Origin: Paenibacillus sp. 481
GTDB lineage: Bacteria > Bacillota > Bacilli > Paenibacillales > Paenibacillaceae
Length of the DNA stretch: 64,000 nt
Reading direction: 5' to 3'
Assembly: GCF_021223605.1 (NCBI RefSeq)
Contig: NZ_CP075175.1
Location: 1,964,001-2,028,000 of the forward strand
In this document: in pieces, positions 45,365 through 56,514 of the stretch
Layout of the letters: every line of letters starts with the position of its first letter
How positions within the stretch are numbered: position 1 is the first letter of the stretch
The notes under the pieces: model-generated
The model's database searches: none
Told to the model about the DNA's origin: nothing
What the model saw: the letters and a program-made list of their open reading frames with translations, nothing else
Translations under genes and position numbers: made by a program

Positions 45365-45429
45365 TTCACAAACACATAAAAATATGGTAATTTAAACGGG
45401 TAATGAATATAAATCGGAAGGTGACGCCC

Positions 45430-46731
45430 ATGAAGCTTAACATGCCACCAGAAACATTACTCCGAGAAATAGGCAGTGTAATGAAACAGAAGCGACAAGA
45501 ATTGCAATTAAGCATAGTCGAGTTGGCAGAGCTTTCGGGTGTACATCAAGATATTGTATTACAACTAGAAGAAGGTTTAGGTACGGAGCTTGATCTAGCA
45601 ACCATTTTTCCCATTATGACAAGCTTGAAGCTGCCCCCTACCATGATCATTAGCATCTTTAATGACACGAAGCAGCAACCTGAACAGTGGTTTTCCCTAC
45701 TAATCGCAACGATCCCACTTCATGAGTATGAGTTAACGGCATCAATCGCCGCACAATTGCTAGAGTCCCCTAATCTGTATAACATTTTCAATGTGAAACG
45801 TTTATACGATATGATCACGACCACGTCATGGGACGACAGACTTCAATTGTGTTTATACGAGACCATTATTCAATACTGCACGACACATCACATCCGAATA
45901 TTTATCGCGAAGAGCCTGCTTCAGCAATATTTAATCAAATGTAAAGATGACACTCAACTAGATATAGCATTCGAGTTCGGCCAACAAGTGCTTGAGCACG
46001 TGAAGTCACTTTCTGCTCCAGAAAAGATATTATTATATGCCAAAATGAGCATACACGCTTTCAAGCGATTGCAATTTAATGACTGTATCGCTCTATGTTC
46101 ACACGTCATTAATAGCAAGGAAAAAAATGAGCTCCACCAAATGGAAGCTATTTATGCCGCATGCCGATCTTTTTACTTTTTAGGTAAATATAAATTCGCG
46201 AAACGATTCCTGCACATGTACAATACATCCTCTTCACCAGACGCCGAACAAAACAAGAACATCATGACCGCCATGCTATACGGCAAAACAGGACAAACCA
46301 AAACAGCCATAATCGAACTAGAAACTTGCTTAGCAACTACTTCACCGTCTAACTACGTCCATCTTGCAACGGAATTATTGGAATTATATTTGAAGCAAAA
46401 TGACCTCCAAGCCGCAGCCGATCTGATCCAAGATGAGGACCGCATTATGGAATACCCAATAAGCTCACCCCTACAAGATTATCGGACAGCACATTTTCAT
46501 AAACTTAAAGGTGACTTTTTTATACGCAAAAAAATGGCTCGCGAAGCTGTTCCCGCATACATCTACAGCTCGTTACATTATTCAAAAATAAATATGTACG
46601 GTAAAGTGTTCGAAATTGTGAACATGACGATGAAATACATGATAGAGTTTAAGTTGGTAGAGGACCCGAAGGAAAAAGCAAAGCAGCCGCCTCCGCCACC
46701 ACATATGTGTTTCCCTTCACCCGAATGGTAA
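45430..46731 (+). CDS. HTH-TPR regulator 1 (RRNPP/arbitrium-like) with a peptide-like C-terminus
   Basis: A 433-residue regulator. An XRE-type HTH is at residues 8-60 (MKQKRQELQLSIVELAELSG, followed by VHQDIVLQLEEGL), though its recognition helix is less canonical than in the two paralogues. An all-helical TPR-like domain (about 75-400) shares the LYDI.TT..(A/D)..LQL.L(Y/F)..I(I/T).Y spacing with the regulators at 47761 and 52568. The last residues are PPPPPHMCFPSPEW, absent from the paralogues but similar to the pro-peptide end VPGPEW at 52452. The ATG at 45430 has GGAAGGTGA in front. A signal-peptide receptor role is inferred from fold and context. Confidence 0.75.
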   Translation: MKLNMPPETLLREIGSVMKQKRQELQLSIVELAELSGVHQDIVLQLEEGLGTELDLATIFPIMTSLKLPPTMIISIFNDTKQQPEQWFSLLIATIPLHEYELTASIAAQLLESPNLYNIFNVKRLYDMITTTSWDDRLQLCLYETIIQYCTTHHIRIFIAKSLLQQYLIKCKDDTQLDIAFEFGQQVLEHVKSLSAPEKILLYAKMSIHAFKRLQFNDCIALCSHVINSKEKNELHQMEAIYAACRSFYFLGKYKFAKRFLHMYNTSSSPDAEQNKNIMTAMLYGKTGQTKTAIIELETCLATTSPSNYVHLATELLELYLKQNDLQAAADLIQDEDRIMEYPISSPLQDYRTAHFHKLKGDFFIRKKMAREAVPAYIYSSLHYSKINMYGKVFEIVNMTMKYMIEFKLVEDPKEKAKQPPPPPHMCFPSPEW

Positions 46732-47620: not shown

Positions 47621-47760
47621 CACGAAATCGCAAACAAAAAAATGGTGAAAAAGTGCGTTCAGCATTATAATATCAATTTACAGAAAAGGTCTATGATGGT
47701 AATATAGTGTCAAAAGCTGTAACAAGCTGTAACCCATCAATTACTCGAAAGGGTGATGAG

Positions 47761-49065
47761 ATGAAGACCGTGTCGCTGCATTACACCACGATCGGCGACC
47801 TTATTCGACAACGAAGACAAGAAATAAAGCTCTCACTAAGGCGACTGTCACAATTGTCAGGCGTCGACAAAGCAGGCTTGTCCCGTATCGAAAACGGAGG
47901 AACAAAACGCCCCGAATTTCGAACGCTGCAAGCGTTAGCTGCCATTTTGCACATCCCGCATGAAGAACTGATTCACCATTACGTTCAGGTTGAAGACCGA
48001 CCCGACGTGCTACACGAATTAATGCTGGAAGCTATTCAAGCATCCGACCCTACCTCCATGATTAAGCTTGCCACCGGATTGTTACAATCTCCGCGCGAAG
48101 ACAGCTATGATCTTGTCGCACAATTGTACCAGACAGCGACGAGTGTAACAGATGTTCAGCTGCAACTGATGTTATACCAAATCATTACGGATTACTCGCG
48201 AAGCCACGGTATCCAACAATATTTTACTAGAGGACTTCTTCAACGATACTACATTGAGAAAAATGACCCCTGCAAGTATGAATCTGCCTACAAACTTGGC
48301 CAAGAAGTGGTCTATTACGCTGAATTTTTATGCCCACAAGATCGCGTAGAGCTTCACTACATATTGGGCGTCCAAGCCTACAATATGATGCTGTACGAGG
48401 ACGCTATCCAGTTATGCACTTACGTGCTCGAACAGCATCGAATCTCTCCCAGCATGAACATGTACGCTCGCTTGACCATTTGTGGCGCGTACTATGAGCT
48501 AGGCCTATATGCCGAAGGACAGCATTTGTTAAGCATGTCCAATCGCCCGCATACTACGGCAGCGTCCGAAGTTACTAACATTACAGCCGCGCTAATCAAC
48601 GGAAAGCTAGGGCATATAGAGGACGCTATCGAACAACTCTATACATGTTTAGATGACTGTCTGCAACAAGGCTCACACGCCAGTCTTCTTTATATCATTA
48701 CTGGATTAATGGAGTTGCTTTTAGCCAACAACGATACTAGCACCGCTTTGCAACTGCTAGCTTACGAAGACATCATTTTAAATCTGCCGATGAATACACC
48801 TCTGCAACAGTCAAAACGAGCCTATTATTTTAGGCTTAAAGGGGATCTATTTTGCCGAATCGAGCAATATGATGCTGCTTTTGACCATTTTTTTATTAGT
48901 GCGCTCGAATATGCCAAGATTCATCTCTTTAGCAAAGCCTTTCAAACGCTAGGCTTAATCACGAAAGTGCTATTAAAGGTTGAGCTTGTCTATAGCAAAG
49001 CAATCGTACGTAAAATTGACCTTATGTACGATATGTTATGCTGTCATATGAACGGCCGCAGTTAA
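47761..49065 (+). CDS. HTH-TPR regulator 2 (RRNPP/arbitrium-like)
   Basis: A 434-residue paralogue of the other two regulators. The canonical XRE HTH (IGDLIRQRRQEIKLSLRRLS, then GVDKAGLSRIENG) is at residues 9-45. The TPR-like region runs from about 80 to 425, with the shared LYQTATSV.DVQLQLMLYQII and YFTRGLLQRYYIEKND segments. Start ATG 47761 has AAAGGGTGATGAG; a GTG frame extension to 47707 has no site. I find no small exported ORF directly after it. The convergent secreted PepSY-like gene lies 91 bp beyond its stop. Confidence 0.78.
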   Translation: MKTVSLHYTTIGDLIRQRRQEIKLSLRRLSQLSGVDKAGLSRIENGGTKRPEFRTLQALAAILHIPHEELIHHYVQVEDRPDVLHELMLEAIQASDPTSMIKLATGLLQSPREDSYDLVAQLYQTATSVTDVQLQLMLYQIITDYSRSHGIQQYFTRGLLQRYYIEKNDPCKYESAYKLGQEVVYYAEFLCPQDRVELHYILGVQAYNMMLYEDAIQLCTYVLEQHRISPSMNMYARLTICGAYYELGLYAEGQHLLSMSNRPHTTAASEVTNITAALINGKLGHIEDAIEQLYTCLDDCLQQGSHASLLYIITGLMELLLANNDTSTALQLLAYEDIILNLPMNTPLQQSKRAYYFRLKGDLFCRIEQYDAAFDHFFISALEYAKIHLFSKAFQTLGLITKVLLKVELVYSKAIVRKIDLMYDMLCCHMNGRS

Positions 49066-49156: not shown

Positions 49157-50251
49157 TTATTTACTAGAGCTGTTATCAACGCTAAAAGAAATAAACTGCC
49201 CTTTGGCATCTACCATCCCCACAATATCAGGCTTCCCTTTTTTACTGAAAATGTAAAGTTCCAAATCCCCACTCACGACGTAGTCTTTGCTTATATCGAC
49301 TGCAAATATTTTTTTCACCATAGGAGCTGCCACTGCGATCGCCTTCTTGTTCGTATAATAACGCTTGGCAGACGGCTTCGGCGGCTGTTCTCCCGCTTTA
49401 TAATATACTGGCTTGCTATTTTTCACTATGTGCATAACTAGGCCTGACTTCGCATCAATCGCCACCTGAAATCCTGTCTTCTCGTCTTCAAGCGACCAGT
49501 AATTGTCCTCTTTGTCTATAATCCGCGAAGCTCCCGTAAAAGTTACCTTTTTGCCGATAAAGCTCTCACTCGCTTGCTGCGCAACCTTGAGCGTCTTGTA
49601 ATCTACCTGCCCAGCTTTGAATGTTACATTTACATTCGTTACTTTATTCGTGTTAACATCAACCGTAATATGCACATCATGCCCTGACAGATTGACACTC
49701 TGTCCTGATTCATCATGTAAGCGACTGGCCCTCTCGAACGTAAATGAGCGATTGCCATCTAGCTTGTTCAAATACTGCTTCGCGGCATCCAACACCTTTG
49801 CGCCAGCGTCTGCGACTTCGATTTCGATATGCAGGAAGAGGAGAGTCCCTTTTTGATCTAACGTAACGTTCGCTTCATCGTTTTTGGTGTAAAAATCAAT
49901 ATAGGGTCCGGTAACAACTGCTCTTTCTAGCTTCACATCCTTGCCTTTCCAGTATGGCTTAATCGCCTTAAGCGCTGCGTCTACGAACTTTTTATCCATC
50001 TCCGATATGTGTTTGTTCTTACTCACATAGTTATGTTTACCGCTCTCGTCGAAATAAATCTTCACCGTATCGGATGAAAATTCAGGAATAGTTATAATTT
50101 CATTGAAAGATATAGATTCGGGAAAATATATATCTTTGGTCGAAGATGTAGGTTCGGCATGTAACGGTGTTGCTGTGGCTAGTAGCCCGGTAATAGCAAG
50201 TAAAGCAGTAATGGATTTAAGCGACTTCGATTCCAGCTTATTTACATGCAT
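49157..50251 (-). CDS. Secreted PepSY-like protein, paralogue 1
   Basis: A 364-residue exported protein. A hydrophobic N-terminus (residues 10-31, SITALLAITGLLATATPLHA) looks like a signal peptide. The rest consists of repeating alpha/beta units of PepSY/YcdB character (VDAALKAIKPYWKGKDV, VLDAAKQYLNKLDGNRSFTF, VAQQASESFIGKKVTF), each a helix followed by strands such as VTNVNVTFKAG. The C-terminus VGMVDAKGQFISF corresponds to the KGEFYQF end of the paralogues at 51218 and 55498. Start at 50251: AAGGAGG lies eight bases upstream and inside the longer open frame. Function unknown. A leader hairpin with a T run lies just upstream. Confidence 0.72.
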   Translation of the reverse strand: MHVNKLESKSLKSITALLAITGLLATATPLHAEPTSSTKDIYFPESISFNEIITIPEFSSDTVKIYFDESGKHNYVSKNKHISEMDKKFVDAALKAIKPYWKGKDVKLERAVVTGPYIDFYTKNDEANVTLDQKGTLLFLHIEIEVADAGAKVLDAAKQYLNKLDGNRSFTFERASRLHDESGQSVNLSGHDVHITVDVNTNKVTNVNVTFKAGQVDYKTLKVAQQASESFIGKKVTFTGASRIIDKEDNYWSLEDEKTGFQVAIDAKSGLVMHIVKNSKPVYYKAGEQPPKPSAKRYYTNKKAIAVAAPMVKKIFAVDISKDYVVSGDLELYIFSKKGKPDIVGMVDAKGQFISFSVDNSSSK

Positions 50252-50276
50252 TGAAAGTGCCTCCTTAAGCTCATTC

Positions 50277-50325
50277 ATTTAAAAAAGGTGACTATTTCTT
50301 GATGCACTCATCAAGAAACGATCAC
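50277..50325 (-). terminator. Terminator-like hairpin in the leader of paralogue 1
   Basis: On the minus strand GGTGA..TTTCTTGATG / CATCAAGAAA..TCACC is followed by TTTTTT and lies just upstream of the AAGGAGG site of the gene starting at 50251. It may attenuate that gene, or end an upstream transcript. Confidence 0.65.
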
Positions 50326-51217: not shown

Positions 51218-52198
51218 CTAATTAAAAATAGCTTCGCCCGTATCAATCCAAAACTGATAGAATTCACCTTTATCATTGATGTATCCACCTACTTCAGGAT
51301 GACTTATCGTAGGCTTACTACCTTTTTTAAAAGCATATGCATAAATAGGCTTTGGTACCGTGTAATCTTTTAAATCAATATTAAATAGTTTTTTAACGAG
51401 CGGTGTTGCTGTTTTTTTCACTTTAGCGCTTGTAAATGATGTGGAAGCAGAGCCTTTATCCTTTTCCTTCAAGTAGACAACGTATACCTTATGGGTTCTA
51501 CCATCCACTTTAACCCTATTTCCATTAGCAAACGTAATCGTAAAAAAGTCATAATTATATCGCTTAGCCGTATGACGCTCAACATGCTTGACCGCTCCTG
51601 ATTTCCCCTTCATATCCACTAAGGCTTTTTTTGCTACTTGTACTAATTTAGGATTTAGCTTAGAAATACGATAGTCTGTCTGAACCTCGATTAGATTCCC
51701 TGTCTTGTTATCCATAACAAGATGATTCGCATATGATTTTTTGTCATAAAAAATCCACTCATCTCGCTTATCTTCTACTTCCTTGAGGCGCGTAGCATGA
51801 CTGAGTTCAAATTCAAGCTCGCTATCATACCGTTTTAGCTGGTCAAGCACATTTTCCATTATCGCAGGATCAACTTCTTCACCCGTAAATGGGATATACG
51901 CCGAAATGAGCTGCTTACTCTTTTTATTTACTAACACTCTTGAAGATTCATCACTTAATTCAAATTCTATGATTTGAACCCCAAAATCGTTTTTATATTC
52001 AGAAACGGCTACAGGTTCTAGATTATGATTAGGTACTAACTCCTTTATGGTCTGATTAACAACGGAAATGATTTGTTTATCCACATTTGCAAGGCTGACT
52101 TCTTTTGTATATGCGGTTACTACAGTCGTAAAAGGCGAAACGGATAGAAGTAATGCGGCTACACTCAAGCCGATTAAACCTTTTTTGTACCATTTCAT
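51218..52198 (-). CDS. Secreted PepSY-like protein, paralogue 2
   Basis: A 326-residue exported protein. The signal peptide (MKWYKKGLIGLSVAALLLSV, then SPFTTVVTA) is followed by repeated helix-strand units (IISVVNQTIKELVPNHNLEP, VDPAIMENVLDQLKRYDSEL, LVQVAKKALVDMKGKSGAVK). The end GGYINDKGEFYQFWIDTGE is the family signature. The ATG at 52198 has AGGGGG ten bases upstream; the frame extends 13 codons further without a better site. The small palindrome GTATAC-N7-GTATAC (52236-52254) lies upstream. Directly downstream of the peptide/regulator 3 cassette on the same strand, but separated by a terminator. Function unknown. Confidence 0.72.
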   Translation of the reverse strand: MKWYKKGLIGLSVAALLLSVSPFTTVVTAYTKEVSLANVDKQIISVVNQTIKELVPNHNLEPVAVSEYKNDFGVQIIEFELSDESSRVLVNKKSKQLISAYIPFTGEEVDPAIMENVLDQLKRYDSELEFELSHATRLKEVEDKRDEWIFYDKKSYANHLVMDNKTGNLIEVQTDYRISKLNPKLVQVAKKALVDMKGKSGAVKHVERHTAKRYNYDFFTITFANGNRVKVDGRTHKVYVVYLKEKDKGSASTSFTSAKVKKTATPLVKKLFNIDLKDYTVPKPIYAYAFKKGSKPTISHPEVGGYINDKGEFYQFWIDTGEAIFN

Positions 52199-52235
52199 GA
52201 TGTGTTTACCCCCTAAAATGATTTCTCTGATGTAC

Positions 52236-52254
52236 ATTGGTATACATACATCGT
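52236..52254. promoter_or_regulatory. Small inverted repeat upstream of paralogue 2
   Basis: GTATAC-ATACATC-GTATAC, 40-55 bp before the start codon; possible operator. Confidence 0.35.
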
Positions 52255-52337: not shown

Positions 52338-52364
52338 AAAAAGGCCAGTCTGAAACTGACCTTT
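52338..52364 (-). terminator. Terminator of the regulator 3/pro-peptide operon
   Basis: On the minus strand AAAGGTCAGT / ACTGGCCTTT followed by a T run, about 90 bp after the pro-peptide stop. Confidence 0.85.
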
Positions 52365-52451: not shown

Positions 52452-52571
52452 TTACCATGGCTTCCATTCAGGGCCTGGCACACTCATTGGTGTAATAGCG
52501 GATGGGTCTATTACTGGTACCACAATAATTAATACCACTAAACAAATGAATCCGATTATCTTTGTTTTCAT
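52452..52571 (-). CDS. Exported 39-residue pro-peptide, putative quorum-sensing signal
   Basis: Short ORF whose ATG overlaps the TGA of regulator 3 (ATGA at 52571-52568), so it is translationally coupled. Residues 1-4 (MKTK) are basic. Residues 5-21 are strongly hydrophobic (IIGFICLVVLIIVVPVI), i.e. a secretion signal. The remaining 18 residues (DPSAITPMSVPGPEWKPW) would be the exported part, ending in a Pro/Trp-rich segment from which a short mature peptide could be cut. A terminator follows. The arrangement mirrors receptor-signal pairs of the RRNPP type (PlcR-PapR, Rap-Phr) and especially phage AimR-AimP and the Alo systems of Paenibacillus polymyxa. Signalling is inferred, not shown. Confidence 0.72.
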   Translation of the reverse strand: MKTKIIGFICLVVLIIVVPVIDPSAITPMSVPGPEWKPW

Positions 52572-53746
52572 ATTAACTCTTCTTTTTTTCGTAGAGCAGC
52601 ACACACGGAGTTGATTTTGCGAATAGTCTCAACGCCAATCAGTTCGTTGTTGTTAAGGAGTAATTCCGTTACGTGGTGGAAGCTATCGAACGCTTCTTCA
52701 CGTTTTGAAATGTAGGTATACTTCTCTACGCTCGTCAAGTAGGCGTCAACTGCGCAATCAAACTCTGCTAAAGCCGATAATACATGCCCTTTTATTCTAT
52801 AATAGCGAGCAATTTCAGCTCCTACCATCGGCGTTAAAAAAACGATCCCCTGTATCTTATCATCGTAGGAAAACAATTTTTGAGCTGCGGCAATGTCATC
52901 ATTTTGCAGATGAATTTCAAGCAGCCCCGTTACAATGTGAATAAAATTATTGTCCGCTGCATCTTGCAAACAGGCAGTTAGCTCAATCTTTGCAAAGGCA
53001 GTGTTACCAACTTTACTTTCAACTAAGGCGTTAGCCACTCGGTGTTTTTCAGCACTTCCGGCAAATTTGAAAGTGATATATTTGTTGTAATAATGTTTGC
53101 ACTCATCATAACGTGTCAAACTGTAAGCATGAACCGCCAGCTTGTAGTACAGCAAAATTTTTTCGTCGTGTGAAAGGAAATTTTTATAATTTAAGATGTG
53201 TTTCCCATATTGATACGTGGACTCCAATCGAGTAAAGTCGTTTCGTTCTATGAAGTACGATTGCAATTGTCCCTTCGCTAGATACAGCATGACTCCGTGA
53301 TCACGGGAATAATCAATAATGGTTTGAAACAACAAATATTTTAGTGCTGGCTCGGCTTTACAGGTGGTTGTTATATCGTAAAGTTTCTCGATTGCGTCAA
53401 AGCTATCTTCGTTTGGGGACTCTAAATATTTGATGGCTATTTTTGAAGCTAGTGAAGCGCTGCCTAATGATATAACTTCTTCTAAAATCGAAAGCAGTAT
53501 ATCAATTCTTGGAACGACACAGATGTAGTGTTCGACAGTCACTTCATATGGAGTGTTCAAGGATTTGGCAATGTTTTGAATAGTGGCGTACTCTGATCGC
53601 TTAATCTCCCCATTTTCAATTCTTGCAATCGTTGTGCGATGAACTCCTGACAGTTCTTGTAGTTGGGGGACAGACAAATCTGCGTCTATTCTGTGCTGTC
53701 TAAGGAGATCGCCTATAGTTAAATATAGTTGCGAACCCGTGGACAT
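52568..53746 (-). CDS. HTH-TPR regulator 3, putative peptide receptor
   Basis: A 392-residue paralogue of regulators 1 and 2. The XRE HTH (IGDLLRQHRIDADLSVPQLQ, then GVHRTTIARIENG) is at residues 11-47. The helical TPR-like domain (about 75-385) holds LYDITTTCKAEPALKYLLFQ, then TIIDYSRDHG, YLAKGQLQSYFIERND and the typical TPR spacing. Length and layout match AimR- and PlcR-like receptors (about 380-400 residues). GGAGGG precedes the ATG. Its stop codon overlaps the pro-peptide start, and both end at one terminator. The regulated target is not known; adjacent secreted paralogues are candidates. Confidence 0.83.
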   Translation of the reverse strand: MSTGSQLYLTIGDLLRQHRIDADLSVPQLQELSGVHRTTIARIENGEIKRSEYATIQNIAKSLNTPYEVTVEHYICVVPRIDILLSILEEVISLGSASLASKIAIKYLESPNEDSFDAIEKLYDITTTCKAEPALKYLLFQTIIDYSRDHGVMLYLAKGQLQSYFIERNDFTRLESTYQYGKHILNYKNFLSHDEKILLYYKLAVHAYSLTRYDECKHYYNKYITFKFAGSAEKHRVANALVESKVGNTAFAKIELTACLQDAADNNFIHIVTGLLEIHLQNDDIAAAQKLFSYDDKIQGIVFLTPMVGAEIARYYRIKGHVLSALAEFDCAVDAYLTSVEKYTYISKREEAFDSFHHVTELLLNNNELIGVETIRKINSVCAALRKKEELI

Positions 53747-53816
53747 ATGCGTGCCCTCCTTTTGACATGAAATAATGGTATATAGTTCACCGTGTTTTAC
53801 CTATCTCGTAAATCGA

Positions 53817-53848
53817 AAACAAAAAGGCACCGCTATAAAAGCAGTGCC
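53817..53848 (-). terminator. Terminator of the amidohydrolase gene
   Basis: On the minus strand GGCACTGC / GCGGTGCC followed by TTTTTGTTTT. Confidence 0.85.
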
Positions 53849-53905
53849 TAGTGCGGGTAATTTAAAGTTCCTCCATCGATAAACATATTTATCACATGCA
53901 GTCTC

Positions 53906-55497: not shown

Positions 55498-56514
55498 TTA
55501 TCTCGTCTCCAACATTTTAAACTGCCAGAACTCTCCCTTACTATTAATCACTCCGCGAATGGAAGGCTGCCCTTGCTTCGTGAACGTGTACATATCTAAC
55601 TTCACATCTACGCTAGTTCCACTTAACTGAACATTAAATAGCTGTTGAACCATGGAATTTGCCGCATTTATCGCCTGCTCACTTGAATAGAAAGGAACAG
55701 CAAACACGTCTTTTTTCGTTTGCCCTTGCTTAGGTGCGATGTACTTATTTTTGGCCAAAATAGATACGACATTGCCCATGTTTGCCTCAATATTGACGAC
55801 ATAATCCGCCTTTAGATCATATAGCTTCCATAGGTCAACACTACCGACTTGCACGCGCAGCGCCTTATCAAAAGCCACATCTTTGCCCGAAAACTGCTTT
55901 ATCGCCGTTTTTGCCGTATCCAGTGCACTCTTCTCGACACCGTTTACCGCATATTCAGTCGACACATACGTAATCAGATTACTCTTTGCATTCACTTCCA
56001 CAAACAATTTATTATTGCCCATAAAGGAATACCTATCTGTATTTGAAAAATGAGCTTTACTGCGCGTTATCTTATCGAACGTATACGTTCGCTTAGCATC
56101 CATTTGTTGCAAATGACCTTTTACCATATCCATTAAAGAAGGGTCTACTTCGTGCAGCTTAAACTGCACATTAACCGAACGTACCTTGCCAGACTGCTCG
56201 ACTGTGACATCGACATCTTTTTCCTTCGAATAAATCACATACCGATTATCTGGCAATAACACGACCTCATTCAGCTCTACTACCTTATTAGGTGCAATTT
56301 CTCTTATTGCTTGTAATGCAGCATCCTTAACATGGGCATCTATATGAGATATGGTCAGCTCATTATGCTCAGACTCGCGTTCAGTCATCGTTTCCACTTC
56401 TTGTGAAGCTGTTTGTTTCGATGCAGCTGACACGTTAGTTGCATACAAAGGAACTGTTGACAGCAATAAGCCTGTGACCGTTAGTGTGGTAAGAAACAAC
56501 CGATAAGATTTCAT
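55498..56514 (-). CDS. Secreted PepSY-like protein, paralogue 3
   Basis: A 338-residue exported protein. The signal peptide (residues 1-31, MKSYRLFLTTLTVTGLLLST onward to NVSAA) is followed by a Glu-rich linker and the family helix-strand repeats (KDAALQAIREIAPNKVVELN, VDPSLMDMVKGHLQQMDAKR, LDTAKTAIKQFSGKDVAFDK). It ends with IRGVINSKGEFWQF, the same signature as paralogue 2. No terminator is seen between it and the amidohydrolase 122 bp downstream, so the two may be co-transcribed. Function unknown. The similarity among the three copies is modest, so duplication is not recent. Confidence 0.72.
   Translation of the reverse strand: MKSYRLFLTTLTVTGLLLSTVPLYATNVSAASKQTASQEVETMTERESEHNELTISHIDAHVKDAALQAIREIAPNKVVELNEVVLLPDNRYVIYSKEKDVDVTVEQSGKVRSVNVQFKLHEVDPSLMDMVKGHLQQMDAKRTYTFDKITRSKAHFSNTDRYSFMGNNKLFVEVNAKSNLITYVSTEYAVNGVEKSALDTAKTAIKQFSGKDVAFDKALRVQVGSVDLWKLYDLKADYVVNIEANMGNVVSILAKNKYIAPKQGQTKKDVFAVPFYSSEQAINAANSMVQQLFNVQLSGTSVDVKLDMYTFTKQGQPSIRGVINSKGEFWQFKMLETR

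Follow-up and report, generated by a model that had tools for sequence, protein, structure and literature searches.

The cassette analysed here, a regulator gene followed by a 39-codon peptide gene, is a genuine member of a predicted RRNPP subfamily; it is ordinary in kind, and unusual in the loss of a repeat from its receptor and in its missing target. It lies in the window, by which we mean the whole stretch of 64,000 nucleotides of Paenibacillus sp. 481 DNA that was analysed. In our judgement the cassette is likely to be an RRNPP peptide-pheromone/receptor pair, of a subfamily separate from Alo, whose specificity and target have probably been altered.

Results

Layout of the cassette

The cassette is on the minus strand, and consists of a 392-residue HTH regulator followed by a 39-codon peptide frame of the exported type (Table 1). 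The TGA stop codon of the receptor sits inside an ATGA (52571-52568), whose ATG opens the short frame. The translation of this frame is MKTKIIGFICLVVLIIVVPVIDPSAITPMSVPGPEWKPW, with the stop codon at 52454-52452. About 90 nt past this stop, a hairpin, AAAGGTCAG-loop-CTGGCCTTT, is followed by TT (region z = -2.2 upon folding). A scan for consensus terminators did not pick up this hairpin (52364-52338), though folding supports it. Every element of the preliminary description, i.e. the regulator, the ATGA overlap, the 39 codons with their basic head, hydrophobic stretch and Pro/Trp-rich end, and the terminator, was found.

Upstream of the receptor gene (53747-53824, minus strand), a TTTACA...TG-TAAAWT-like promoter is common to the clade relatives presented below, and the spacing between the matching elements looks, by eye, a few bases shorter in the window than in these relatives. 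A shared operator was sought in the upstream regions of the eight clade members, by eye and through short dyads, and no common palindrome was found.

Table 1. Positions in the window of the features of the cassette and its borders.
Feature	Coordinates	Strand	Basis
Receptor gene, 392 aa, ATG start	52568..53746	-	ORF; XRE-type HTH and TPR-like superhelix, RRNPP-type
Pro-peptide gene, 39 aa, start overlapping the receptor stop (ATGA)	52452..52571	-	ORF
Hydrophobic segment of the pro-peptide, predicted to serve export, residues 5-21, IIGFICLVVLIIVVPVI	52509..52559	-	sequence; clade relatives arranged likewise
MSVPGPEWKPW, presumed signal region, containing the clade motif P-[ED]-W	52455..52487	-	7/7 clade peptides, 0/74 others
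HTH DNA-binding domain, residues 11-67	53546..53716	-	Pfam HTH_31 1.5e-8, HTH_3 8.5e-7
Shine-Dalgarno-like sequence of the receptor gene, AAAGGAGG	53753..53763	-	sequence
Terminator-like hairpin 3' of the pro-peptide gene	52338..52364	-	folding
Terminator-like hairpin of the upstream amidohydrolase gene, setting the cassette apart from it	53825..53849	-	terminator scan
Deletion junction Cys216/Lys217 in the receptor	53098..53099	-	alignment; TPR hairpin of 36-42 residues absent

The short frame is coding throughout a family of receptors

A contig search with the single receptor protein gave no matches; relatives were found by an alignment-based search. Query searches of the genome from which the window comes (5.69 Mb) matched about 23 full-length receptors, and homologues are spread through 19 genomes of the genus (P. 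alvei / apiarius / profundus / dendritiformis / assamensis group). One scan of viral contigs returned no relative of the window receptor. The family set comprises 103 receptors of at least 380 residues, read together with their downstream DNA.

A frame of the exported type (basic head and hydrophobic stretch) follows 78.6% of the 103 receptors, compared to 15.3% in a null made of Markov-shuffled downstream DNA (10 rounds). When a Trp among the last ten residues is also required, the proportions become 75.7% and 2.2%, respectively. Such a Trp is present in 79 of the 81 family peptides, and behind 22 of the 103 receptors a peptide frame was not found. The ATGA overlap (offset -4) is seen in 21/81 cases, more often than any other arrangement. 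When 26 independent pairs of related loci were pooled (1018 codons), the peptides yielded a dN/dS of 0.32, against 0.87 one frame off (+1; 560 codons, equal-length pairs only), and the receptors of related loci yielded 0.19. Compared to its nearest relatives, the window peptide itself is saturated (pS 0.69, pN 0.54). Judging from these ratios, the family peptides are coding and under purifying selection. The receptor/pro-peptide architecture with a coding short frame, as first proposed from the window alone, is borne out by the two contrasts, in frame occurrence and in dN/dS; the frame is conserved beside orthologous regulators, where its lack of conservation had been named as the evidence that would speak against it. 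Of the relatives' peptides, those of phage Sundance and plasmid pBRLA33 carry the annotation 'hypothetical protein', and that of phage SecTim467 has none.

A signal motif restricted to one receptor clade

With the deleted columns left out, the receptor tree places the window receptor in an eight-member clade (SH-aLRT 99), together with a receptor of the same genome (contig positions 3066255-3067547), one of P. alvei, and one from each of five other genomes. It pairs with the receptor at 3066255-3067547 as its sister (SH-aLRT 99). The closest named relative is found on the P. alvei DSM 29 plasmid pPAV16. This is a 16-kb plasmid record, and the location of so close a relative hints that these cassettes may be mobile.

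The C-terminus carries a conserved motif, P-[E/D]-W, present near the end of 7/7 clade peptides and of 0/74 other family peptides. The clade peptides end in GPEWKPW, GNPEWTPF, GGNPEWKPN, GGNPEWRPN, GNPEWSPH and, twice, GNPDWTSH. Since the motif is restricted to the clade, the signal region follows the receptor tree, a pattern that pheromones and their receptors should show. The window peptide is the sole P[ED]W peptide found in its own genome, and a literature text search for PEWKPW found no paper.

RRNPP type and predicted fold

The AF2 model of the window receptor (pLDDT 87.8) is all-helical, the HTH domain leading into helices arranged in pairs. Among PDB structures, Foldseek ranks PlcR-PapR7-DNA first; ComR, AimR and NprR appear lower in the list, interspersed with generic TPR proteins. 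The RRNPP structures match with low TM-scores (0.33 for PlcR), and unrelated TPR superhelices are mixed in with them. The family profile matches consensus TPR proteins; a sequence search of the PDB with the single receptor returned HTH proteins only. The HTH domain and C-terminal TPR-like superhelix of RRNPP receptors are both recognised in the window receptor, through the Pfam HTH matches, the AF2 model, the PlcR match and the TPR profile, and the adjacent gene has the sequence features and the conservation of a pro-peptide gene whose product is predicted to be exported. By architecture and predicted fold, the cassette is RRNPP-type, which agrees with the gene order recognised at the outset.

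The window receptor has lost one TPR repeat

Alignment places the window receptor 38 residues (114 bp) short of its family, with one internal TPR repeat missing between Cys216 and Lys217. The 102 other full-length homologues (102/102) hold 36-42 residues at this junction, and the loss is unique among the 103. The missing segment falls in the best consensus-TPR match of the family profile (profile positions about 198-277), and the helix lists of two AF2 models, of the window receptor and of a paralogue without the loss, fit the loss of one helix pair; pTM is 0.68 for the former versus 0.82 for the latter. The junction is preceded by YDEC, and in the sister the next repeat has an AEC-like stretch at the corresponding position. 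These flanks suggest that the repeat was lost by recombination between neighbouring repeats. The 38-residue gap may also be an assembly error. If real, the missing repeat may have destroyed peptide binding. Departures from conserved columns amount to 14% in the window receptor, versus a median of 6% (rank 8 of 103).

A spo0E-like gene is missing at the window locus

A spo0E-like ORF is located downstream of 65/103 family receptors, and of 6/6 clade relatives with enough sequence to assess. None was found within 1.5 kb at the window locus. Eleven of the 16 spo0E-like genes of the same genome are directly downstream of full-length receptors of the window family, one more lies ∼1.8 kb behind a receptor fragment, and one lies behind an AloR13-type receptor. 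The sister receptor at 3066255-3067547 has kept all repeats and is followed by a spo0E-like gene (at 3065903), with no peptide frame of its own. In alo13, spo0E is switched on by AloR and turned off by the peptide (PMC7425212). By analogy with this system, spo0E would most likely be the regulated gene in the clade of the window receptor.

Genomic surroundings

The genes inspected, from 42.8 to 58.8 kb of the window, look chromosomal (amidohydrolase, Glu/Leu/Phe/Val dehydrogenase, endonuclease V, NMN transporter), and no phage genes were seen among them. The next gene past the cassette hairpin encodes a predicted secreted protein with no Pfam match. It is situated directly 3' of the cassette on the same strand (51218-52237, minus), and is one of three predicted secreted proteins around the cassette (49157-50278, 51218-52237 and 55498-56514 (-)), alike by eye and all without a Pfam match.

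Three family receptors are gathered in an 8.4-kb part of the window. The one at 45403-46731 (plus strand) has no peptide and no room for one, endonuclease V being next; it is the most divergent of the 103, with 40% of conserved columns violated and the longest end branch of the tree. The one at 47707-49065 (plus strand), devoid of both peptide and spo0E, is the second most divergent (24% of conserved columns violated). The C-terminus of the receptor at 45403-46731, PPPPPHMCFPSPEW, resembles the signal of the window receptor's clade. A tethered ligand, with PPPPPHMCFPSPEW as a fused signal, was considered and rejected as unsupported, the tail being disordered in the AF2 model (pLDDT about 35-56); the divergence of this receptor, and the fact that a close orthologue was not found, count further against it.

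Relation to Alo and to cluster 8

AloR13 was recovered from P. polymyxa-group genomes through the primer printed in PMC7425212. It matches the window receptor with a BLAST E of 0.26 (27% over 100 residues), and profile-profile comparison (14% identity, prob 94%, E 1.1e-7) indicates remote homology only. A search of nine alo13-bearing P. polymyxa-group genomes with the window receptor gave nothing at 1e-5; the identical query finds its family readily in the window's own genus. RRNPP_Detector assigns to Alo the receptors with 30% identity to AloR13 over 80% mutual coverage. The window receptor shows neither this level of homology nor, in the nine genomes searched, a presence in the P. polymyxa lineage, and Alo membership was rejected. 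An identification with the Alo systems of P. polymyxa, to whose gene order the preliminary description had likened the cassette, is therefore not supported, and of its interpretation as a whole the RRNPP receptor/pro-peptide pair stands. In the Alo study, a three-round iterative search gave 1,050 AloR-like hits (PMC7425212); some relatives of the window family may have been swept into that number.

The window's genome also contains a row of four AloR13-type receptors (1304307-1310199), and a further two that are more distantly related. A spo0E-like gene adjoins the row, and both RRNPP subfamilies are present in one genome. The AloR13-type peptides found here end in HGIGG, HGMG, HGVGG or NGVGGYQ. 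At 1763860-1770003, two distant AloR-like receptors are followed by short hydrophobic frames ending in GSGWSKQ and GGGWQKQ; these receptors possibly form a third subfamily.

A plasmid of B. laterosporus LMG 15441 is reported to carry one AloR-AloP system and one system of the novel cluster 8 (PMC10075063). On pBRLA33, RS22620 is an AloR-type receptor (45% to AloR13), and RS22615, which the 44-aa RS25105 directly follows, is a homologue of the window receptor (27% over 412 aligned columns, 6.6e-58). Since RS22620 takes the AloR slot, RS22615 and RS25105, and hence the window family, should by elimination be the 'cluster 8' of RRNPP_Detector; the window receptor is homologous to the non-AloR receptor of pBRLA33. 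Later work on cluster 8 was not found among open-licence papers, and cluster 8 is apparently so far a computer prediction only, as far as the searchable literature shows.

Discussion

The genes, the coding family peptides, the clade motif, the predicted fold, the loss of a TPR repeat and the absence of spo0E were all computed. For export, processing, import, binding and regulation, the general RRNPP pattern served as a guide, and suggests the following sequence of events. In the clade from which the cassette would have descended, members immediately precede a gene for a spo0E-like phosphatase. The hydrophobic segment would direct export of the 39-residue pro-peptide, trimming would leave a short piece of the C-terminus that includes P-E-W, and an oligopeptide permease would bring this peptide back into the cell. 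There it would be bound in the TPR superhelix of an HTH regulator, whose DNA binding would change. Because the receptor lost one TPR repeat and the usual target gene, the present specificity and target of the window pair probably differ from those of its relatives. Repeat loss and missing spo0E together make the current function uncertain: the cassette may be an altered pair, a signal donor, or a locus in decay.

Two readings would deny that the peptide is a pheromone at all. Shuffled downstream sequences contain a frame similar to the 39-codon one in 15% of cases, so that it could be a chance open frame beside an ordinary regulator, an idea which deserves hardly any credence, as it is contradicted by family-wide conservation, by selection, and by a clade motif found in 7/7 against 0/74 peptides. 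Small hydrophobic peptides can be toxins, and the upstream regulator might control a frame that encodes a toxin, or else a bacteriocin or a small membrane peptide. This is most improbable, given that the family peptides share a pro-pheromone layout and a C-terminal Trp motif tracking receptor phylogeny, and that the receptors have RRNPP-like predicted folds.

The other readings concern the present state of the locus. Under decay, the receptor would have been inactivated by losing a TPR repeat in frame, spo0E would have disappeared, and the peptide frame would be a remnant that has yet to erode. This reading has in its favour that the 38-residue loss is unique among 103 homologues, that there is no spo0E within 1.5 kb, that departures from conserved columns are at 14% (median 6%, rank 8 of 103), and that the two other receptors of the window are peptide-less and far more divergent (40% and 24%). 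However, both frames are open, with the start, overlap, hydrophobic segment and clade motif intact, and the deletion removed exactly one repeat, in frame, leaving an AF2 model that is still well ordered. Departures of 14% are also seen in paralogues with peptides, and the count is inflated by the distance of this genome from most others. We regard decay as doubtful, though a serious contender. A role as signal donor in trans, the window peptide signalling to the peptide-less sister receptor at 3066255-3067547, appears rather unlikely. The two receptors are sisters (SH-aLRT 99), the sister has spo0E and no peptide frame, no P[ED]W peptide besides that of the window was found in the genome, and cross-regulation between Alo systems has been reported (PMC7425212). 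Nevertheless, sister receptors so diverged may differ in specificity, and it is common for family receptors to have no peptide that could be found (22/103). A split circuit after duplication can also be imagined: the window copy would have kept the signal while its receptor lost the repeat and spo0E, the sister would have lost the signal and kept a full receptor and spo0E, one locus would signal to the other, and the short receptor may have acquired a new specificity. We hold this to be unlikely.

The cassette is of value for the pattern seen across its family and for its natural deletion, more than as a new kind of system. This genome has about 23 receptors of the cluster 8 type as well as at least four of the AloR13 type, and most of its spo0E-like genes directly follow the former, which makes it a test bed for how peptide signals connect with the control of sporulation in the P. 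alvei group. The conserved C-termini of the Pro/Trp type, which sort with the receptor clades, are ready candidates for synthetic peptides. The natural one-repeat deletion bears on the number of TPR repeats needed by a peptide receptor, and on the relation of repeat loss to specificity.

Comparison with known systems

PlcR-PapR consists of an HTH-TPR regulator and a small downstream pro-peptide gene, and PlcR is the best Foldseek match of the predicted window receptor, but a sequence relation was not found beyond the fold, and PlcR is shorter and has no spo0E link. AimR-AimP likewise has the receptor followed by the peptide and a downstream gene as target, and AimR is in the Foldseek list; the structural match is weak, however, and the peptide is of another type. 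Its temperate-phage location and aimX-type downstream target are not seen at the window cassette, where the genes inspected (42.8-58.8 kb) look chromosomal rather than phage-derived. The Brevibacillus phages Sundance and SecTim467 have a homologous receptor, 30-32% identical to that of the window, a peptide ending in YTDNPGY/YTDDPGY directly downstream, and a spo0E-like gene next; they differ in being phage-borne, in the PGY end in place of the Trp motif, and in the presence of spo0E. In SecTim467, an AloR13-type receptor is also nearby, and the peptide beside the first receptor is unannotated.

Alo (Voichek et al. 2020, PMC7425212) resembles the window family in its receptor-peptide operon, its many copies per genome, the spo0E-like gene often downstream and its occurrence in Paenibacillaceae, but the receptors form a separate subfamily, and AloP13 ends in SHGRGG, which is not of the P-x-W type. 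Cluster 8 of RRNPP_Detector (Bernard et al. 2023, PMC10075063) combines a receptor with a downstream exported peptide, on chromosomes, plasmids and phages of Paenibacillaceae. The cluster 8 relatives keep all TPR repeats, a feature of 102 homologues and no published criterion, whereas the window receptor has one repeat fewer.
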